Assembly: GCA_016928255.1 (NCBI GenBank)
Contig: JAFGLB010000018.1
Location: 1 to 40,289 of the forward strand
DNA: 40,289 bases
Source of the DNA: Bacteroidota bacterium
GTDB lineage: Bacteria > Bacteroidota > Ignavibacteria > UBA10030
Direction of reading: 5' to 3'
Below are positions 9,472 to 39,800 of this stretch, piece by piece. Made by a program: the position numbers and the translations under genes. Each line of letters opens with the position of its first letter. The first letter of the stretch is position 1. Below the pieces are notes generated by a model. The model ran no database searches. It was not told the origin of the DNA and worked only from the letters and a program-made list of their open reading frames with translations.

Positions 9472-11484
9472 ATGTCGTATCAACTCATTACAGATCTTGT
9501 TCCTTCAGGCGATCAACCCGAGGCAATTCGGCAGTTAACAGAGGGAGTCAAACGGGGCGACCGGCATCAGACGCTGCTGGGCGTTACGGGCAGCGGAAAA
9601 ACATTTACAATTTCCAACGTTATCTCGCAAACCGACAAGCCCGTGCTCGTTATGTCTCACAATAAGACGCTTGCCGCACAGCTGTATGCGGAATTCAAAT
9701 CCTTCTTTCCAAAAAATCGTGTTGAATTCTTCATCAGTTATTATGATTACTACCAGCCTGAAGCATACATCCCTACGTCAGACACATATATAGCAAAAGA
9801 TTCTTCTGTTAATGATGAAATTGACCGCCTGCGGCTGCGCGCGACAAGCGCTCTGCTGAGCGGCGACCCGAATGTCATAGTCGTCGCTTCGATCAGCTGC
9901 ATTTACGGCATCGGCGCACCGGATGAATGGATCAAGCAGACTCTTATACTGAAAAAAGGAGAGCATCCCGGCCGGCAGGGTTTACTTAAACGTTTAATTG
10001 ACTTGCTGTATACAAGAAACGACTATGAGTTTGCGCGCGGTACATTCCGTGTTCGCGGCGATGTTGTTGAAATAATACCCAGCTACGAGAACGAAGAAGC
10101 CGTACGTATAGAATTCTTCGGCGACGAAATTGAACGCATATCTTACATCAATAAAACAGACGGCAGGGTGGTCGGCGAGACCGATTTTGAGATGATCTAT
10201 CCTGCAAAACAATTCATCACTTCGCGCGAGACTATTGAGCGGGCGAGGGATGATATTTATAAGGAATTACGCGAGAGGGTCGAGGAATTCCGTTCTCTTG
10301 GAAAACTTGTTGAAGCACAGCGGCTTGAACAACGTACCAGGTTCGATATGGAAATGCTTCGTGAAGTCGGATATTGTTCGGGAATAGAAAATTATTCGCG
10401 TCATTTCGCGGGAAGACCGCCCGGATCGCGTCCGTCCTGTCTGCTGGATTATTTCCCCAAGGACTTCCTTACCATAATCGATGAATCGCACGTCACCGTG
10501 CCTCAAATCGGAGGCATGTATGCCGGCGACCGCTCGCGGAAAACAACCCTCGTTGAGTACGGCTTCCGCCTCCCTTCCGCTCTCGATAACCGTCCACTGA
10601 CATTCGATGAATGGGAAGCAATGGAAAAACAAATCATTTTCGTCAGTGCTACGCCGAGACCGTATGAATTGGAAAAATGCAAAGGAGTCGTCGTCGAACA
10701 GGTTATCCGCCCGACAGGCCTGATTGATCCGGATGTTGAAGTGCGTCCCAGCAAACACCAGATAGACGATTTGATCGCAGAAATCCGTACACGCACAATA
10801 CGCAAAGAACGGACATTAGTCACTACACTCACGAAACGGATGGCTGAAGACCTGACTGAATACCTGACAAATATAGGAATCAATGTGCGCTACATCCACT
10901 CTGAAGTCGACGCACTGGAGCGTGTTGAAACACTGCGCGATTTAAGGCTTGGTGAGTTCGATGTTCTGGTCGGTGTAAATCTTTTGCGGGAAGGACTCGA
11001 CCTGCCCGAGGTTTCTATGGTGGCAATAATCGATGCAGATAAAGAGGGCTTTTTGCGTTCCGAGCGCTCGCTCATACAAACCGCAGGCCGAACAGCACGC
11101 AATGTAAACGGAAAAGTCATTCTTTATGCGGATAGAATAACCGGGTCCATGGAACGTATGATCGGCGAAACAAACCGGCGAAGAACAAAACAAATCGAAT
11201 ACAATAAGAAGAATAATATTACTCCAGTAACAATCTATAAAACGGTTGAAGAAATTCTGGCTTCAACATCGATCGCCGATGTTAAAATGAAACGGGACGA
11301 GCGCTATCAGAAAGCAAAGCCGCGTGCAATCGCGGAAACAGTAGCAAAATATCTGACAAGCGGCCAGAAAAAAGACCTGCTCGATGAATTAAAAGCTGAA
11401 ATGAGACAGGCGGCAAAAGACCTTGAATTCGAACGCGCCGCCGAATTACGGGATGAGATTGAGAAACTTGAGAAGAAAAGCTGA
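9472..11484 (+). CDS. uvrB: UvrABC system protein B
   Basis: Excinuclease subunit B of nucleotide excision repair, 670 aa, full family length. It verifies lesions delivered by UvrA and recruits UvrC. Visible features are Walker A GVTGSGKT (37-44), the beta-hairpin segment [12 protein letters not shown] with the following [10 protein letters not shown], the Walker B region [12 protein letters not shown], helicase motifs V/VI ([12 protein letters not shown] and QTAGRTARN) and the C-terminal UVR domain (about 632-668, [17 protein letters not shown]) that contacts UvrC. The ATG at 9472 gives the standard N-terminus; there is no strong Shine-Dalgarno, which is common in this lineage. A terminator follows at 11534-11575, so it is probably monocistronic. 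Confidence 0.98.
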
Positions 11485-15101: not shown

Positions 15102-15947
15102 TTATTCTTCTCCCTGCCGGCCTGTTATGGCCGGCAGTTTTTTTATCAGGACATATCTTTTGTAAAGAATGGAGATAATAAGTATCGAGTTCATCAGAAA
15201 TAAATTAAGATAGAGATATACATCAATCCTGTACAGGACCGAACACACCATCAATAAAAAATACTCTGTGCCAAAACCAAGCAGACCGGAGATACGCAAA
15301 GAAGTTTTATCTGAATACCAATTGTGTATTATACTATCCAGCCGGCGATCATCTCCGCTTTTATCGGATTTACCCGGCCTGCTGCCGGAGCACCAATTAT
15401 CGATTTTCGCCATAAGCCGGTCCTGCCAGCCGTAAATAAAAATGAAAATCCGCTGCAGCGTCAATTCGATGCCGCCCTTTTTCAAATCCTCTGCCTGAAT
15501 TTCTTCAGACGAACGATTGTTTAAATACTCATCCTGCAAATGAAGATATTTTACCTGGTAAAAAACGTGGTATGAAACTCTCAGTGTAATTCCCAGAAGG
15601 CCTGACACCGCTAGCAACGGCATCCACAAGCTGCTGCCGGATTGAAAAAGAACCCAGCCAATCGCGCTGAACACTGCGGCATTAACTACAAAATCACCGA
15701 TAGAATCCAAGAATCTGCCTGTACGGCTCGATTGCTGTTTTACCCTTGCGAGCTGACCGTCGGCAGAATCGAGCAAATCCTTAAGCGTGATCAGCAGTCC
15801 TGCTGTTACAAATGCACCCGGAGTACCCTCTAAATAAAAAAATGCGGCTGCAAGTCCGGATATTATAGACGCTATAGTCACCTGATTTGCTGTAACAGGT
15901 GTATAATAAAGCACCCATACTATCAATCCCGCGACAGGACGAAGCAA
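15102..15947 (-). CDS. CDP-alcohol phosphatidyltransferase family membrane enzyme
   Basis: Integral membrane phospholipid-synthesis enzyme that moves a phosphatidyl or phospho-alcohol group from a CDP-linked donor. The full family motif is present: D60-x2-D63-G64-x2-A-R68, then G77-x3-D81-x3-D85 (DSADGQLARVK ... GRFLDSIGD). Hydrophobic spans occur at about 3-15, 22-38, 44-56, 86-115 and 225-262. The start is uncertain: the listed end uses a TTG with no ribosome site, while family-like residues (INTYLLRP) continue upstream in frame to an ATG at 16007 whose very next codon is TAA. The gene lies downstream of the split helicase. The acceptor alcohol cannot be told. Confidence 0.85.
   Translation of the reverse strand: MLRPVAGLIVWVLYYTPVTANQVTIASIISGLAAAFFYLEGTPGAFVTAGLLITLKDLLDSADGQLARVKQQSSRTGRFLDSIGDFVVNAAVFSAIGWVLFQSGSSLWMPLLAVSGLLGITLRVSYHVFYQVKYLHLQDEYLNNRSSEEIQAEDLKKGGIELTLQRIFIFIYGWQDRLMAKIDNWCSGSRPGKSDKSGDDRRLDSIIHNWYSDKTSLRISGLLGFGTEYFLLMVCSVLYRIDVYLYLNLFLMNSILIISILYKRYVLIKKLPAITGRQGEE
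15114..15144 (+). terminator. Rho-independent terminator after the tandem receiver genes
   Basis: CTGCCGGCC (15114-15122) pairs with GGCCGGCAG (15129-15137) around a 6-nt loop and is followed by seven T (15138-15144). The 9-bp GC-rich stem is strong. It lies 39 bp after the stop of tandem copy 2 and inside the last codons of the convergent CDP-alcohol phosphatidyltransferase gene. Confidence 0.85.
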
Positions 15948-16038: not shown

Positions 16039-17064
16039 TTAATCAACGACCCATGGTTCCAGCAGGTGCTCGCCGATACCTTCAATAAAACGTGAAGGTT
16101 TTGTTAATATCAAGCCGCTCTCGCGGTCGTAAATATTCATCGGATATGTAATAATTAAATGTTCCTTTGCACGCGTGCAGGCAACATACATAAGCCGGCG
16201 TTCTTCTTCCATCTCTTCATCGCTTGCCGCAGCCCGCATTACAGGGAATCTACCTTCAAGCGCGTAGATTACAAAAACAGTATTCCATTCCAATCCTTTA
16301 GCGCTGTGAATTGTTGAGAGCGTAAGGTATTCAGTTTCCGGGCCCGGCGATTCAATATCGGCAATACTTTCATTAGGCGGTTCAAGAGCCAAATCCGTCA
16401 GTAATTCATCAACCGACCTGTAGCGTTCTGTAATATTTTGAAATGTTTCCAGGTCTTTTTTCCGTTTAAGATGATCTTCATAGCGAGCCCGAAGTATAGG
16501 CTCATAATACTGCAGAATAAGAGATGTCTTTTCAGCCGGAGGAATATCAGGCGATACAATTTCTTTCAGCACATCGAATAATTTACGGACATTTTCCGGA
16601 TAACCGCCGTATTCCATCCAGAACTTTGTCGTTGCGGTTACAGCCTCCTTGAATTCCTTTACCAGGCCGACACGCCTTTTCAGAATATCGTCCACGACCT
16701 TTTCCGCCGTGCGGGGACCCACGCCGTCTATAAGCAGAAGAATACGGTTCCATGATACGACATCCTTGGGATTCTCAAGCACTCTCAGGTATGCCACAAC
16801 ATCTTTAACATGCGCCGTTTCTATAAATTTAAATCCGCCGAACTTTAAAAACGGGATATTCGCTTTAGCCAGCTCGATTTCAAGATCGAACGAATGAAAC
16901 GAAGACCTGAACAATACCGCCATCTCTTCGAGCGGTATGCCCATTTCACGGAATTCCAATATCTTCTGTACTACATACCTCGACTGCTGGTTCTCTGTCT
17001 GCGCTGAAACAAGCTGCGGAAGATTTCCGCCCGATTTTTTAGTATAGAGCTGTTTAGCGTACAT
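16039..17064 (-). CDS. UvrD/Rep-family helicase, C-terminal half (split gene)
   Basis: C-terminal 341 aa of an SF1A (UvrD/Rep/PcrA-type) DNA helicase. It carries the 2A/2B domains, with motif V in TLSTIHSAKGLEWNTVF and motif VI in EERRLMYVACTRAKEHL. It is in the same frame as the N-terminal half at 17065-18063 and separated from it by a single TGA (17065-17067). Its ATG is the codon immediately after that stop, so the junction reads TGA-ATG. A purine-rich AGGGAGAGG lies about 12 nt upstream inside the first half and could support re-initiation. Both halves are intact otherwise. Alternatives are a nonsense mutation, stop readthrough or a sequencing error. Confidence 0.88.
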   Translation of the reverse strand: MYAKQLYTKKSGGNLPQLVSAQTENQQSRYVVQKILEFREMGIPLEEMAVLFRSSFHSFDLEIELAKANIPFLKFGGFKFIETAHVKDVVAYLRVLENPKDVVSWNRILLLIDGVGPRTAEKVVDDILKRRVGLVKEFKEAVTATTKFWMEYGGYPENVRKLFDVLKEIVSPDIPPAEKTSLILQYYEPILRARYEDHLKRKKDLETFQNITERYRSVDELLTDLALEPPNESIADIESPGPETEYLTLSTIHSAKGLEWNTVFVIYALEGRFPVMRAAASDEEMEEERRLMYVACTRAKEHLIITYPMNIYDRESGLILTKPSRFIEGIGEHLLEPWVVD

Positions 17065-18063
17065 TCAACTGCCCAGCCTCTCCCTGCCGCGTACGATTAT
17101 TTCATTTGCTAAATTCAAAATCGGCTGAGTACTTCTGTAATTTTCTTCCAGCTTGATTATCCTGCAATCATTGAATTCTTCGCTGAATGTCAGGATATTT
17201 CTGATAGTCGAACCCCTGAAAGAATAAATGCATTGTGCATCATCACCGACTACCATTAAATTCCTGTGTTTGGATGCGAGCAGTTTTACTATTTCTGCCT
17301 GCAGTTTGTTTGTATCCTGGTATTCGTCAACCATAATGTACTTATAATGCTCGGAGAGGGCTGCACGCACTGCTTCTTCCTGTCTGAGCAGAAGTGCAAA
17401 ATTCAACAGCAGATCGTCATAATCCATCAGGTTATGCTCATGTTTGTATTTGACGTAGGCATTATGAAGGGCAGTGATATCATTCTCTATCTCCATATAC
17501 TGCGGGTAATCCGCGGCCAGAAGTTCTTTCACGGGCGTTACCGTATTCAGCGACCGGCTGTAGAGATCATATAACGTTTCTTTACGTGGAAATCGTTTCT
17601 CTCTCGTATCGTATTTCATGCGTGTACGGATCAGGTTTACAACATCTTCAGCATCAGCCTGATCGAGTATCGTGAAGTTGTTTTCATATCCCAGGCGGCC
17701 CGCATGTTTTCGCAGTACGCTATTCGCAAAAGAATGGAACGTTCCGCCTGAAACCTGTTCGCATCTGCTGTCGAGAAGGATCGATGCTTTCCTGAGCATT
17801 TCCTGCGCCGCTCTTCGCGTGAATGTCAGCAGGAGCAGCGAATCGGGTTTAATACCGAGCTCGACCAGATACGCAACGCGGTATACAATCGTGCGGGTCT
17901 TCCCTGTTCCAGCTCCGGCGATAATAAGATGCGGGCCGTTAACTGATGTCACGGCTTCATACTGCGCCGGATTTATTTCCTGTTTATAATTAATACGCAG
18001 GTGCTGGGGCTGAACAAGATGAAGGTGATCACCGGGAAGCGTTTTAAGTGTGAATTTCTTCAT
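17065..18063 (-). CDS. UvrD/Rep-family helicase, N-terminal half (split gene)
   Basis: N-terminal 332 aa of an ATP-dependent SF1A helicase. The ATG at 18063 (MKKFTLKTLPGDH) is chosen over a TTG 14 codons upstream. Visible motifs are Q (INPAQYEAV), Walker A/I (GAGTGKT), Ia (LLTFTRRAAQEM), Ib (GGTFHSFA), II (MVDEYQDTN), III (VVGDDAQCIYSFRG) and IV (KLEENYRST). It ends in an in-frame TGA at ANEIIVRGRERLGS, just after motif IV, where the family continues into domain 2; that continuation is exactly the next reading block (16039-17064). Combined, the two would make about 674 aa, normal for the family, acting in DNA repair or replication-fork maintenance. It is divergent from ackA. Confidence 0.88.
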   Translation of the reverse strand: MKKFTLKTLPGDHLHLVQPQHLRINYKQEINPAQYEAVTSVNGPHLIIAGAGTGKTRTIVYRVAYLVELGIKPDSLLLLTFTRRAAQEMLRKASILLDSRCEQVSGGTFHSFANSVLRKHAGRLGYENNFTILDQADAEDVVNLIRTRMKYDTREKRFPRKETLYDLYSRSLNTVTPVKELLAADYPQYMEIENDITALHNAYVKYKHEHNLMDYDDLLLNFALLLRQEEAVRAALSEHYKYIMVDEYQDTNKLQAEIVKLLASKHRNLMVVGDDAQCIYSFRGSTIRNILTFSEEFNDCRIIKLEENYRSTQPILNLANEIIVRGRERLGS

Positions 18064-18244: not shown

Positions 18245-19495
18245 ATGAATATACTCGTATTAAACTGCGGCAGTTCTTCTCTAAAATTTCAGATTATCCA
18301 GACAGATCTCGAAAAGATTGAGAAGGATGCCGACAAACAGCTTGCCAAAGGCCTGATCGAGCGGATTGGAAGTCAGGCTCTTGTTACAATGCAAGCGACC
18401 GGCAGGCCTGTTGTAAAACATGCAGCCCCGTTAAGAGACCACCGGTCAGCACTCGATCATGTTGTCAAATGGATCATTTCAAAGGACTCGCAGATCCCCG
18501 AGATCCAGTCACTGGCGGATATTCATGCAGTAGGCCATCGTGTAGTTCACGGTGCCGAGCATTTCACAAAATCAACAATCATCTCGGATGAAGTTATTCG
18601 CGGTATCGAAGATTGCATTGATTTAGCTCCCCTGCATAATCCGGCAAATCTTAAGGGTATTAATGCCGCCCGCGAACTTTTGGGCGACGGCATTCCGGAA
18701 GTTGTTGTATTTGACACCTCATTCCATTCAACAATGCCGGAAACGTCGTTTTTATATGCAATCCCCTACCAGCTGTACCGCAGGCATAAAATAAGGAGAT
18801 ACGGTTTCCATGGCACGTCCCACCGCTATGTAGCATACCGCTACCGGCAGTTGACCGGAAAGAAACCGGATGAGACCAATGTTATAACACTGCATCTCGG
18901 CAATGGATGCTCGGCCTGTGCCATCAAGAAAGGTGCTTCTTTTGATACTTCGATGGGACTCTCACCGCTGGAAGGGCTTGTAATGGGAACGCGAAGCGGT
19001 GATATAGACCCAGCTGTAATTGAATTCCTCTCTCATAAAGAAGGAATGTCAATGAATGAAATAGATACACTGCTGAATAAGCAGTCGGGACTTCTCGGCA
19101 TCTCCGGATTAACCAACGATATGCGCGATTTACTTGCCGAGGCTAATGATCATCAGGACCGGCGTGCAACGCTTGCCGTTAATATCTTTGCACAGCGCGC
19201 AAAGAAATACATTGGATCGTATTTGGCAGAAATGAACGGAGCCGATGCATTAATATTTACGGGAGGTATTGGAGAAAACGCATGCAGAATCAGGCAGCGT
19301 GTTTGTGCAAACCTCGAATGGCTCGGTATTGAAATCGATGAGAATCTCAACAAGGAAATGACCGGAGGAAAAGAAGGCGAAATCAATACGAAGAAAAGCC
19401 GTGTTAAGGTATTCGTTATTCCGACCAACGAGGAACTGCTTATTGCACGAGATACAGCCCGATGTATCCTGGATTCTTTGAATAACAAGAGCTGA
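18245..19495 (+). CDS. ackA: Acetate kinase
   Basis: Interconverts acetyl phosphate + ADP with acetate + ATP, the last step of acetate fermentation; cytoplasmic, 416 aa, full family length. Signatures are the N-terminal MNILVLNCGSSSLKF, LAPLHNPANLKGI, the catalytic-region FDTSFHSTMPE and RRYGFHGTSHRYV, the phosphate-binding HLGNGCS, and the C-terminal nucleotide-binding FTGGIGENA. No phosphotransacetylase gene is adjacent, so it stands alone here, between its own candidate promoter and a strong terminator. The ribosome site is weak. No anomalies. Confidence 0.98.
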   Translation: MNILVLNCGSSSLKFQIIQTDLEKIEKDADKQLAKGLIERIGSQALVTMQATGRPVVKHAAPLRDHRSALDHVVKWIISKDSQIPEIQSLADIHAVGHRVVHGAEHFTKSTIISDEVIRGIEDCIDLAPLHNPANLKGINAARELLGDGIPEVVVFDTSFHSTMPETSFLYAIPYQLYRRHKIRRYGFHGTSHRYVAYRYRQLTGKKPDETNVITLHLGNGCSACAIKKGASFDTSMGLSPLEGLVMGTRSGDIDPAVIEFLSHKEGMSMNEIDTLLNKQSGLLGISGLTNDMRDLLAEANDHQDRRATLAVNIFAQRAKKYIGSYLAEMNGADALIFTGGIGENACRIRQRVCANLEWLGIEIDENLNKEMTGGKEGEINTKKSRVKVFVIPTNEELLIARDTARCILDSLNNKS

Positions 19496-32764: not shown

Positions 32765-35700
32765 ATGAATCGCATATTCAGATATATACCTAATATATCC
32801 ATCCTATCAAGGATTATTATCTCTTTATTCCTATTTTTTAATATTACTCTGAAAATATCCGCACAAAGTAGTTCAAGTAAAAATCTTACAGGCACCATTC
32901 CGCATTCTGTAATGTTAGCACCACCAAAAAAGTGCTTTATCAAAACAATGCAGGATTATAAAAAGCACAAACTATCAGGACTAAAAAAAGGTCAGGCAAA
33001 TCAATTAATAGCAATTCAAGGAACAAGAGAAGTGCCTGTTTTATTAGGAAAATTCTCGGACACACAAAATGATCCATGGAATCCTAATGACTTACAAAAA
33101 GCACTATTTGATGGTCCATCACCTAGATCAACGATGAAAGAGTATTTCCATGCAATGTCATACGGACAGTTCAATGTTGGTGGTTCTGTTTCAGCATGGT
33201 ATACTGTATCCCATCCTAAGAGTTATTATAGTACACATGGGACTCTTTTTGATAACCCGCAGACTAAAGAATTCCTGAAAGAAGTACTGGATTCTTCAGA
33301 TAGTTCAATTGATTTTCGTCAATTTGACAATGATGGACCCGATGGGATCCCTAATTCAGGCGATGACGATGGTTTCGTCGATATTGTTTTTTTTGTTTCT
33401 ATCGGATCAAATGGACGTTCTTCCGATGATATTTGGCCGCATTTCTATCTATATAGTATTTTTTATGGAAATCCATATACTACTAACGATATCGGTATAA
33501 ATGGCCAACCCATTTTAATCGATGAATATACTATTCAAAATTCAGAATCGGGCGAAGATTATTACTCACTACCACCTACCGCATTATTTTGCCATGAATT
33601 CGGACATGCACTTGGTTTACCTGATCTTTATGATATAGACTACAGTTCAGACGGAATTGGGGGATGGGGACTTATGGGATACCAGAGTTATTATTCTAAT
33701 GAGCATCCTGTAGGTATGGAAGCCTGGTCTAAGTATCACCTGGGGTGGATTATTCCACCGGTATACGATGAAGGCAGCCATCTGAATCAAGTAATCAGAA
33801 ATTCCTATCAAAATTCAGAGGCATATATAATAAAGAAGAAAAGTGATAGCAAATACTTTCTGATAGAAAACAGAAGAAGAATTGGATTTGATGAATTTAT
33901 TAGATGCGAAGGCTTATTGATCTGGTCTGTAAACGAATCAAAATTTGAATTTGGACAGACAGGAGGTTATGGTTGGAACAATGCAGGTAATGCTGATGAT
34001 AGTGATAGAGGAGTAAATCTAATAAAAGCGGATAATTCAGACAATGCTTACACCGAAGAAGGAGACGCTTATCCGGGGCATGCTAATAATCATACTCTTG
34101 ATCGAAATAGCTTGCCAAATAGCAGGGATCGTGACGGATTTGATACAGGGATCGGAATTACTAATATTAGAGAACAGGAAGACACAATCGTTGCTAATAT
34201 CAGTATCAGTACCGCAGTTTTGAATTCTTTCCTTATTGAACCACAACCGATGGAATTTTTCAATACAAATGAATTAATCGCGATAAAAGGTACAGCAGAT
34301 GGTACAAATTTTATAAGTTATGATTTGGATATTGGTGAAGGAACAAATCCGCAATCATGGACATCTTTCGTGACAAATAATTTTCGTGTTGTTGACTCAA
34401 CTTTAGGATATTTAAATCCTTTCTCAATATCTAAAGAAAATATATATACAATTCGATTGAAAGCGAAAGACAATGAAGGCATTTCTGTAAGTACTTCTCA
34501 GATTTATCTTAGTTCTGCTTTTGCTTCAGGTTGGCCGCAGAAAGTTGAGGATAGAATAATTGCACATTCAATCGGAGTGGATGATATAGATAATGATGGC
34601 AAAGTTGAAATAACTGCCGGAGTATATAGTACGACAAAAAGTAATGCTTACTTATATATGTGGACAAGCGATGGAAGATCAAAGGATTCTCTATTATGGC
34701 CAAAGACAGTATCAGGAAACCGGATTTCCGCTCCAGCTTTTGCTGATTTAGATAGAGATGGCAAAAAAGAAATAATTTTTACAACAATAAATAGTTTATA
34801 CGTTCTGCGAAGTGATGGTACAAATTTCCCTGGATGGCCAAATCCAATTTCTTCTTTTTCTGCACCAGTTGTTAGTGATATTGACGGTGATGGAAATCTT
34901 GAAATTATTGCCTCTGAAACATCTTCACCGAAAGTATACGCTTGGCGATCGAACGGAGTACAATGTTCTGGATGGCCACAGACTATGGATAATAATAATT
35001 TTTATGGTCCTGTTGTATCGTTTAGTCCTGTTGTATCTGACCTCGACAATGACGGCAAATGCGAAATCATTCAGAAAAATGAGTCCGGACAGCTATATAT
35101 ATGGAATTACGATGGACAACTAAGAAGAAGCCTGTCATTAGCTGAACATGATTTTAGATCATCTGAACCGATTGTTGCGGATCTGGACGGTAATGGACAA
35201 AAAGAAATAATAACTCTATGTGATCATAGTATCTACGTATTTACCATAGATGGATCAATAGTCCCTGGCTGGCCTAAACCAATCAATAGATATGATGCGA
35301 CAGAGACATTTGCAGTTTCAGATATAAACAACGATAATTATGCTGAGATTATTCTTGCAACGGATTACGTTACTGTATATGATTACCAGGGCAACATACT
35401 GCCTGGATGGCCGTCAGATCCTTTATTAAGTGATCATATAGATGCCGAAGCCAATCCTACGCATCCAATTGCTGCGGATATCAATAGCGACGGTGAAATT
35501 GAAATTATTGTCGTTAATTATAGAAATATATTTGCCCTTTCAAATAAGGGCAAAATTATTGATGGATGGCCGCGAAAAATACCTAATCGTGTTGATCAGG
35601 GTTACTGGATAGCTTTTCGCGAATATACTCCAATTATTACAGACATCAACCTGGATGGAAATATTGAAATCGCTCTTGGCGCTGAGAATCAAGTATTGGT

Positions 35701-36748
35701 CTGGGAACTGGGAACCAAGATAAAACGAGCTAATACAAGTTGGCTGAAATGGCAAAGCAATAAATGGAACACAGGCGAATATAAATTTATTCCCAGTGAT
35801 GATATTCCTTTCACGACCGGGCCGGATATCTCCCATCCTCCAATGTTGTCATTAGGTAATGTACAAATAGGGCAATCGAAGGACACAACAATCACAATAA
35901 ATAACCTCGGGAACGATACACTGCGAATAACTTCAATCACTTCTATCCGCAGTGAAATATTATCTTTATCGAATATAATAAATATCGCACCCGGTAAACG
36001 GGCAATTGATACTTTAAGGTTTACTCCGATTTCGTCTTGTCAGGTAATATCAGAACTTGTTATCACAAGCAATACCTTAACTTCTCCGGATACAATTATA
36101 GTATCCGGAATTGGTATTGGAAATAGTGGTACAAGTTATTCATATAAAGTCATTGATTTTGATAAGATAAAAGTCGGTCAATTCAAAGATAGTACAATTT
36201 CTATAACAAACACTGGTAATGATACATTAAAAATACTATCAATAACATCATCGAATTCTTCTTTTTCTGTCTATCCAGCAACGCTAATGGTTGCACCTCA
36301 GCAGACTCTGGAAGATACAATAAGATTTGCACCAACAGGAATTGGTAGTATCAATTCCAAAATAGTTATTGTATCCAATGCACCAATCTCACCAGATACA
36401 ATTATTGTGACAGGTATTGGATTAGATCCAACAGAATCAGTTGATGATTTATCGTATCAAATCCCAAAAGAATATTCAATTTCTCAAAACTATCCAAATC
36501 CTTTTAATGCAAATACAATAATTCGTTATGGATTGCCTCAAAATAGCATGGTCCGAATCGAAGTATTTGATATACTCGGAAGATTAGTAAATACAATAGT
36601 TAACGGGGTACAAGAAGCGCGTTATTACGAAGTTAGTTGGAATAAAGGTATAGCTTCAGGAGTCTATTTCTATCGAATGATAGCAACAGGGCTCAACGAT
36701 AATTCGAAAACATATATTGAAGTTCGAAGAATGGTTCTGTTAAAATAA
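32765..36748 (+). CDS. T9SS-secreted M6-family metalloprotease with FG-GAP propeller
   Basis: A secreted protease of about 1327 aa. The ATG at 32765 follows GGGGA and leads into a signal peptide (IIISLFLFFNITLKISAQ); a longer frame from a TTG at 32708 is less likely. The M6 catalytic domain spans about 65-470, with zinc motif HEFGHALGLPDLYD (His277, Glu278, His281) and the Met-turn-like GGWGLMGY. Eight FG-GAP/integrin-type calcium-loop repeats (DIDNDGKVEI, DIDGDGNLEI and others, about 590-985) form a propeller. Two ASH-like repeats follow (about 1020-1115 and 1125-1220), then a type IX sorting domain (NYPNPFNANTIIRY, about 1240-1327). Likely degrades extracellular protein or matures surface proteins. 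It is AT-richer than its neighbours. Confidence 0.92.
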   Translation: MNRIFRYIPNISILSRIIISLFLFFNITLKISAQSSSSKNLTGTIPHSVMLAPPKKCFIKTMQDYKKHKLSGLKKGQANQLIAIQGTREVPVLLGKFSDTQNDPWNPNDLQKALFDGPSPRSTMKEYFHAMSYGQFNVGGSVSAWYTVSHPKSYYSTHGTLFDNPQTKEFLKEVLDSSDSSIDFRQFDNDGPDGIPNSGDDDGFVDIVFFVSIGSNGRSSDDIWPHFYLYSIFYGNPYTTNDIGINGQPILIDEYTIQNSESGEDYYSLPPTALFCHEFGHALGLPDLYDIDYSSDGIGGWGLMGYQSYYSNEHPVGMEAWSKYHLGWIIPPVYDEGSHLNQVIRNSYQNSEAYIIKKKSDSKYFLIENRRRIGFDEFIRCEGLLIWSVNESKFEFGQTGGYGWNNAGNADDSDRGVNLIKADNSDNAYTEEGDAYPGHANNHTLDRNSLPNSRDRDGFDTGIGITNIREQEDTIVANISISTAVLNSFLIEPQPMEFFNTNELIAIKGTADGTNFISYDLDIGEGTNPQSWTSFVTNNFRVVDSTLGYLNPFSISKENIYTIRLKAKDNEGISVSTSQIYLSSAFASGWPQKVEDRIIAHSIGVDDIDNDGKVEITAGVYSTTKSNAYLYMWTSDGRSKDSLLWPKTVSGNRISAPAFADLDRDGKKEIIFTTINSLYVLRSDGTNFPGWPNPISSFSAPVVSDIDGDGNLEIIASETSSPKVYAWRSNGVQCSGWPQTMDNNNFYGPVVSFSPVVSDLDNDGKCEIIQKNESGQLYIWNYDGQLRRSLSLAEHDFRSSEPIVADLDGNGQKEIITLCDHSIYVFTIDGSIVPGWPKPINRYDATETFAVSDINNDNYAEIILATDYVTVYDYQGNILPGWPSDPLLSDHIDAEANPTHPIAADINSDGEIEIIVVNYRNIFALSNKGKIIDGWPRKIPNRVDQGYWIAFREYTPIITDINLDGNIEIALGAENQVLVWELGTKIKRANTSWLKWQSNKWNTGEYKFIPSDDIPFTTGPDISHPPMLSLGNVQIGQSKDTTITINNLGNDTLRITSITSIRSEILSLSNIINIAPGKRAIDTLRFTPISSCQVISELVITSNTLTSPDTIIVSGIGIGNSGTSYSYKVIDFDKIKVGQFKDSTISITNTGNDTLKILSITSSNSSFSVYPATLMVAPQQTLEDTIRFAPTGIGSINSKIVIVSNAPISPDTIIVTGIGLDPTESVDDLSYQIPKEYSISQNYPNPFNANTIIRYGLPQNSMVRIEVFDILGRLVNTIVNGVQEARYYEVSWNKGIASGVYFYRMIATGLNDNSKTYIEVRRMVLLK

Positions 36749-36800
36749 TTTCTAATACTCGTCCACTTAAAAAACAAGGTTTATATCGATATTCTTTTGC

Positions 36801-39800
36801 CTAAAAATCCGCACCCAGTGAAAAATAATAGTACGGTTCGGAGAATCCGGAATACTTGTAGCGCCACGCCACGTCAAAGCGGAGTGGAAATCCAAATATA
36901 AACAGGCGTGTTCCAAGTCCGGTTCCAACAAGCAGATCGCCTAAGACTGTCTCTCCGCTCGGGTCGACGGCCCACATCTTCCAGCTCTTCGAATCCGTCC
37001 AGGCCGAGCCCACATCAATGAATGCCGTGCCCAGAATATTTGCAAATCCGATCGGTACCGCTCCGAAAATTAGATACTTTAACAGTGGAAACCGAAATTC
37101 TAAATTCGCAACGGCAAAGTGAGTCCCTACCTGCTGAGCATAATTAAAACCTCTTAAAGGCAGCACAGGCGTAAGAAAAGCAAAATCCTCAACATTTTTA
37201 ATTGGTATATCATTATATGTATAATCCCAATTGAACCAGCCCTCTGTACCTCCGATGAAGAAATTCTGTTTATTGCCGCCGGTGCTTAATCCGCCTGAAA
37301 TACGATAAGCAAGAATGAATTCCTTGGCCAGCCTGTTGTAACTTCTGTAATCAGCTGTAAAGGTCTGGATATCCAATCCTTCGCCGCCCAATTTTGGCGT
37401 TCCGTAAAACGTAAAATTAAAGCGCGAGCCGTTGTTTGGACCGAACCATGCTCCCTGCCATAATGAATTATCCCAGACATAGCTTAATAAAGGTAAAGCT
37501 AGCGAACGGCTTTGTTTAGGTTCGTACGGATCATCCAGGTTTTCACGCGATAAATTCAGCCACATCAAGGAACCGTCTATACGGTTAAACCGGTCGATGG
37601 GATAAGATGCCGTTAAACCGGCCCCCCATGTTCGAAAACGATACAATACGCTGAAATAATAAAAATCATTGTCAAGCAAAAGGAACTTAGCATTGTGAAA
37701 GGCCTGGAAACCCCAGTCGATTCTTCCGGGCAGATAGTAATAAGAGATACCGTAATCGCTGTTCTTTAAATCTATCATTAAATTCGTCTGGAATACTATT
37801 TGATGATCACCCAGCATATCGCTGAATGCAATAATTGCACCTCCCCCCAATCCGTATAATGTATTATAACCTGCTGCTCCATACACAAGATCAGGTGAAA
37901 AATTCAATTTATAACGCCGCGGAATATAATTGCCTTCGCTGTCCAGATTATCTGCTATTACTTCTTTCGAAATCGGAGGCGGGACATTTGTTGTATCGTC
38001 ATTCGATGCCGTGGAAAAAATATAGCCGGAAAAATCCGGTTTCGCCTCCGGTTCATATGCAGTCTCAATCCCGACAGTATCCGCAACAACTATTACGTCG
38101 TCATGAACAGCTATTGTATCGGATTCCGGACTATACGAGAGCAATTCTCTAGGTCTTTCATCCCGCGGCAAATTATATTTTATCTTATAGTATTCGGTCG
38201 GTTCCAATGAAGTGACATTCAGCTTTCGCTCCAATGGGCGCAGCATCAGATAAATATCAAATCCGGCTTCATTCATTGACGAAAAAACAAGTTTGGAGCC
38301 GTCCCGTGAAAGAGATAACTGATAGATACCGCTGATCGAGTTTGTTACAGGATAAAACTCGCCCGTTTCTAAACACTGATTATACAGGTTATTGATCCCG
38401 TTAATATCAGAAATATATAATATGCGCTTTCCGTCCGGAGAAGGAACCGGGGAGGATTTGCTGCCGTTCGGCTGTGTTGTAATGCGATGAATTACACCCG
38501 TTGAAATATCAAGCGAGTAAATATCTGTCTGCCCGGATTCATAATCCCATATCCTGAAATCTTCAGGGACTAAAGACGGCGAGATCATATCGCCTCTGTC
38601 CGATACAAAAAAGACCGTTTTGCCGTCGTTAGAAAAAACAGGATCCATGTCCGAAAAAATATCATTAGTCAGATCTTTAAGTTCCTTCGTTTCCATATTA
38701 TATAAATAAATATCCGACTGCGGTATTTTTACACCTACAAAAACAAGCGTACTGCTGTCATTACTCCAGTGAACTGAAAATATTCCATCCAGATCAAATT
38801 CAAATTTTTCTCTGCTGCCCGATTCAACATCCACAGTAATAATTGCATCATGTCCACCTGACTTTACTGCAAGTGCGATTTTTTTTCCATCAGGCGACCA
38901 GGTAATTCCCGGTGTTAATAAATGCAATTCCTCAAAATCATTTGTTTTCTGGCCGCTTACAATTTTACCGAGAATCTCGCCATCCAGCGCAGACATCAAA
39001 AATACATCAAAATAATCACCCCTGTCAGAGATAAATGCAATCTTGTCTCCTTGCGGCGAAATAGCCGGACTTGTATTATAAAAATTATCGTCATCTACAT
39101 GGTTTGTAAGCCGCTTATATGAGAAATCCGCCGGTTCTTCCCGTTTTGCCACGTCAGGCCAGTAATATACCTTCTGTTCTTTTTGCCAGCGCTCGGACAG
39201 TTCTTTTATCGGCATTCCTAAAGCAGAATTAAAACCTTTCTCCACGCTTCTGGCCCTTTTAATTTCATGAAATATCTCTGAAATCTTATGCTCTCCATAT
39301 TTGTTCGCAATATAAAACCAGACCGATTGTCCGCCGCGGTACGCAAAATACCCGTTCAAATGTGAGATCGGGGGCAGATAATTATGGACGGTTGCATCCC
39401 GTATGAACATGTCCGAATTGTTATCCCATTTCAACGATGAGTATTCGCAAATACCTTCATTCATCCACAATGGAATCTGAACAGGAGCCTTGTTGGAAAT
39501 AAGCGATTGGATTGTACCCCCGTAAAACATATCGTTTATAACTCCATGCACCAGTTCGTGATGAATAACATGCCTGAATTGTGCGTAATCGCCTTCAAAA
39601 GGAACAACTATGCGGTTTTTGAAGAGTTCTGTTACCCCGCCGATTCCCTCCTCTAAAAACTGGCTTATTACATTTGTCTGCTGAAATTCGTTGTGTGAAT
39701 TATAAACAACAAAAGATATGCGGTTATTTATTTCATATCGCAGCAGATTTTTTATCGATTCATACGCATTTTCTGCCGCGGATGCAGTAAACTGTGCAAT

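Follow-up and report, generated by a model that had tools for sequence, protein, structure and literature searches.

UvrD-type helicases are textbook single-chain motors. In PcrA, the gamma-phosphate makes contact with arginines from motifs IV and VI. PcrA, UvrD and Rep are SF1A 3'-5' helicases that have the fold, the motifs and the domain order in common with the helicase described here, the best solved relatives of which are PcrA (1pjr) and UvrD (2is1, 3lfu). However, each of these enzymes is encoded by one gene, whereas our helicase is divided over two genes and two polypeptides across a whole clade. Its direct homologues are fused helicases of the same subfamily from other families of the class and phylum and from Desulfobacterales (L013), which show 48-63% identity over the whole length but are each encoded by a single uninterrupted gene, their chain running on without a break at the position of the cut in the split clade. 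RecBCD, AddAB and AdnAB are multi-subunit enzymes with UvrD-like motor domains, however, each motor is located within one polypeptide, while in the present case one motor extends over two. UvrD-type helicases in pieces have been made in the laboratory: proteolysed PcrA was deposited as several chains with other cut positions (PDB 1qhh), and recombinant fragments of the Plasmodium UvrD are cut elsewhere and do not originate from separate genes (PMC3503981). Genes broken in two, of which both parts were kept, have been reported for other proteins, namely the split Doa10 (PMC3464245) and the split genes of Nanoarchaeota (PMC3655853), and their products are thought to reassemble. A published description of a split UvrD-type helicase was not found in the literature searched, which omits most subscription journals.

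The window, i.e. the whole stretch of 40,289 nucleotides that was analysed, contains the divided helicase on its minus strand. The N-half starts with the ATG at 18063 and comprises 332 codons before the TGA at 17067-17065. The C-half frame follows immediately with the ATG at 17064-17062 and comprises 341 codons before the TAA at 16041-16039. Both halves are in one frame at the TGA-ATG, and the junction TGA is the sole internal stop in 18063-16039 (minus strand). The preliminary description had recognised the two blocks, the single TGA and the following ATG in the same frame correctly, only the strand was missing. Its assignment of motifs Q to IV to the first block and of motifs V and VI to the second is seen in the alignment and in the motif conservation, and the halves are indeed free of further damage, since no other stop occurs and the motifs are intact. 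The features of the locus are as follows:

17065..18063, minus strand: N-half gene, 332 aa, with 1A, 1B and the first strand-helix unit of 2A (PF00580); from ORF and translation, Pfam and conservation in the clade
16039..17064, minus strand: C-half gene, 341 aa, with the remaining 2A and 2B (PF13361); from ORF and translation, Pfam and conservation in the clade
17062..17067, minus strand: junction TGA-ATG, in frame in the window genome; from the sequence, junctions of relatives compared
17077..17085, minus strand: AGGGAGAGG, possible weak ribosome-binding site for the C-half; from the sequence
17890..17916, minus strand: Walker A (motif I) GAGTGKTRT, N-half residues 50-58; from alignment and motif conservation
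17128..17151, minus strand: motif IV LEENYRST, N-half residues 305-312; from alignment and motif conservation
16270..16320, minus strand: motif V region LSTIHSAKGLEWNTVFV, C-half residues 249-265; from motif conservation
16156..16209, minus strand: motif VI region EEERRLMYVACTRAKEHL, C-half residues 286-303; from motif conservation

The N-half, in which Walker A and B are located, matches the UvrD N-terminal domain (PF00580, E 3.1e-76), and the C-half matches the UvrD C-terminal domain (PF13361, E 2.7e-48). The AGGGAGAGG noted earlier before the second start is present 12 nt upstream of the C-half ATG. However, a Shine-Dalgarno-like word of at least 4 bases precedes the C-half start at only 12 of 46 family junctions and a recognisable ribosome-binding site is absent before most of them, hence such a site is not a conserved feature. 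The C-half is followed directly on the same strand by a CDP-alcohol phosphatidyltransferase-like gene (PF01066, E 8.3e-14; 15102-15947, minus). An acetate kinase-like gene (18245-19495, plus) is oriented divergently about 180 bp from the N-half start, and a uvrB-like gene (670 aa; 9472-11484, plus) is situated about 4.5 kb from the split helicase; both were named by eye from their sequences.

For searching, the two halves were joined with the TGA read as Trp. The joined chain aligns with PcrA residues 11-647 (1pjr, E 1.1e-94), and because the alignment ends at residue 647 of 724, the C-terminal extension of PcrA is missing from the split helicase. Judged by profile scores, the pair resembles PcrA/UvrD but falls far short of the equivalog cut-offs, since it reached 465.7 bits versus 911.2 for the NCBIfam PcrA equivalog TIGR01073, i.e. 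about half, and 378.2 bits versus 1144.45 for TIGR01075. Modelled as one chain, the joined halves take a UvrD-like form (mean pLDDT 84.1) that comprises the four SF1A domains 1A, 1B, 2A and 2B and matches UvrD, PcrA and Rep with TM values of at least 0.8 and up to 0.84. In this model the break falls into a low-confidence loop (residues 330-333), which follows helix 313-324 and precedes strand 350-354. The motif IV strand (301-305) and the next helix of 2A are thus part of the N-half. The cut therefore lies inside domain 2A and not between 1A/1B and 2A/2B, where it had been placed wrongly before. When the C-half was modelled alone, its confidence was 68.6 compared with 84.1 for the joined chain and lowest towards the C-terminal part of its 2A, whereby the C-half-alone model used a deeper alignment and model confidence also depends on the alignment. 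In the UvrD of D. radiodurans, AMPPNP sits between 1A and 2A (PMC3797037); together with the PcrA arginines of motifs IV and VI this suggests that the ATP site would be common to the two polypeptides.

The same split was searched for in relatives, as had been proposed, and it was found at one and the same site in each of the 50 homologues that were analysed, which come from six related families of the Ignavibacteria-type lineage (f1, f2, f3, f5, f6 and f9). Among 60 relatives and wider samples of the class and phylum, many of which are metagenome assemblies, the homologue ends near N-half residue 327-340 in the order of the window genome and in family f9, while it forms one frame of about 650-830 aa in other families; the search with the C-half as query gave a matching picture. 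In a tree built from 50 split and 25 fused sequences (75 in total), all split tips fall into one clade without any fused member (FastTree 0.999; UFBoot 100). The support for this clade was 0.972 from the N-half alone and weak from the C-half alone (0.128). The monophyly of the split homologues is explained by a single ancient fission, and the fused sequences surrounding the clade indicate that the fused state is ancestral. Hence, the pattern is that of a gene fission, with unsplit homologues outside, as seen in the trees and in the class and phylum scans, and split ones in one nested clade with purifying selection on both parts. Two apparent fused copies in G017 and G027 (open frames of 619 and 566 aa) were rejected, because in both the N-half terminates at the usual position and the C-half occupies a different frame, so that the extra length lies upstream. 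In otherwise fused families, L133 (G157) and L134 (G229) have shorter frames of 490 and 501 aa that end away from the conserved split, possibly due to damage or sequencing error.

The in-frame TGA-ATG arrangement is particular to the window genome. At the 46 junctions compared, the frame of the C-half relative to that of the N-half is 0 in 14 cases, 1 in 18 and 2 in 14, the N-half stops with TGA (18), TAA (16) or TAG (12), and the spacing between the halves ranges from -4 to +1231 nt. Even the same-genus genomes G001-G004 have other stops and spacings at the same place of the split. Moreover, unrelated genes are found between the halves in some families: a lipoprotein-like gene in 6 of 7 f3 and 2 of 4 f2 genomes, a homocysteine S-methyltransferase gene in f6 (PF02574 confirmed in G057 and G036; G050 similar by eye), and the gene of a 23S rRNA-intervening-sequence protein in G025 (L027; PF05635, E 2.3e-35). 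In f9, N-half and C-half are located on different contigs; in G063, about 20 kb of contig follow the N-half without a C-half, and a pdxH-like gene adjoins the N-half. In the examined f2, f3, f6 and f9 genomes, the end of the N-half generally coincides exactly with the point from which the fused chain would run on (...RARE|KYTK...), and the f1 and f5 N-halves carry short variable tails.

Some further observations were made at these junctions. The lipoprotein-like protein (L038, L039, L042, L044, L048, L050, L054, L059) is conserved with about 260-290 aa, had no Pfam match when L044 was tested, and the stop of its gene overlaps the C-half start by 4 nt in several f2 and f3 genomes. Short junction gaps in L022, L032 and L065 contain near-palindromic AT-rich repeats that resemble REP-type or small mobile elements. 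In G014:C31, the split pair occurs twice on one contig with equal scores and in opposite orientation (35573-37761, plus; 87566-89754, minus), which could reflect a duplication or an assembly artefact.

Both halves are under strong purifying selection, because the pairwise dN/dS values, a measure that the preliminary description had recommended, range from 0.01 to 0.15 for both in comparisons with unsaturated dS. Motifs I, Ia, II, III, IV, V and VI are all present over the two halves, conserved in the 50 split sequences, and equally conserved in the split and fused groups. Invariant residues in the split alignments are K55, D246, E247, Q277, R283 and R310 of the N-half and R298 of the C-half. 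Both halves were found in 48 of 61 genomes, neither in 12, the N-half alone in none and the C-half alone in one (G051), where the C-half match begins at contig base 1; these counts are not phylogenetically independent and the joint presence is partly shared ancestry. The pair is absent from f4, most of f5, one genus of f6 and one incomplete f1 genome, a distribution indicating that it was probably lost together several times.

The single in-frame TGA of the window could in principle result from a recent nonsense mutation or an assembly error in a decaying pseudogene, one of the options considered originally. However, the relatives in all six families are cut at the same site, G001-G004 with other stops and spacings, the split has one old origin, and neither relaxed selection nor further damage is seen in halves with low dN/dS and intact motifs, so that the likelihood of this explanation is next to nothing. 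The frame that is open on both sides of the TGA could also be read through or bypassed, giving one helicase of 77 kDa from a recoded stop. Such a mechanism goes along with a fixed frame relation and a short conserved junction, however, the relatives use three frames and three stop codons and have intervening genes or separate contigs. This variability excludes readthrough or frameshifting as the shared mechanism, nothing calls for a recoding limited to the window genome, and the one-chain product is considered very improbable. An intron or another spliced element that restores one chain at the RNA or protein level would fit the gaps found at this site in some families, which reach about 1.2 kb. 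Yet no Rfam family reached the gathering threshold at 12 loci, the long gaps examined contain ordinary genes, the window genome is without gap, and the N-half ends right at the junction with no room for an intein fragment, hence splicing is exceedingly improbable.

It is unlikely that the halves are separate genes working independently with own functions and without a joint helicase. The other genes between them in f2, f3 and f6 and the different contigs in f9 are in line with independence, as is the report that isolated Plasmodium UvrD fragments are active alone (PMC3503981), which counts against a joint enzyme as preferred here. However, the halves are present or absent together and each keeps its own part of the ATP site as in the fused relatives, while a lone C-half without Walker A and B would not be expected to keep motifs V and VI.

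The clade carries two independent genes of single origin and with the same cut site, conserved motifs, purifying selection and joint presence or absence. We regard it as highly probable that the gene of a single-chain SF1A helicase from a PcrA/UvrD-like subfamily underwent one ancient fission in the clade ancestor, and that its product has since consisted of two polypeptides assembling into one helicase. The same ancient cut kept across six families implies that the halves very probably join as one working enzyme, and we propose an obligate heterodimer with a composite ATP site. In this scenario, the C-half, with 2B and the other part of 2A, would complete 2A by associating non-covalently with the N-half, which contributes 1A, 1B and the first strand-helix unit of that domain. 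ATP would sit with Walker A/B and motif IV of the N-half on one side and motif VI of the C-half on the other, and the heterodimer would act as a 3'-5' ssDNA translocase/helicase. In the window genome, coupling or re-initiation at the TGA-ATG is the probable mode of C-half translation. The preliminary description had offered a two-subunit helicase made by re-initiation as one option; the two polypeptides are supported by the same-site split in relatives and the purifying selection on both halves, whereas re-initiation or translational coupling is applicable only where the halves touch or overlap, as in the window, and not at separated junctions.

The genome also has an ordinary single-chain PcrA-like helicase (L002, 744 aa), and no fused copy of the split-helicase subfamily was found in it, which makes an accessory role of the split enzyme likely, probably as a helicase in repair or replication. 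It is conceivable, if rather doubtful, that the division is useful in itself as a motor from separately supplied halves, where the supply of one half sets the helicase activity; such control might be strongest where another gene separates the halves or where they are on different contigs (f9). For the annotation of genomes, the case illustrates that an old conserved gene fission can be mistaken for a broken gene. Collectively, our data describe a lineage-wide natural two-gene helicase that is cut inside the second RecA-like domain, with an ATP site that would extend across two proteins. Such a natural split helicase may offer a ready-made test of how the motor is assembled and whether the coupling between ATP use and movement requires a covalent link.
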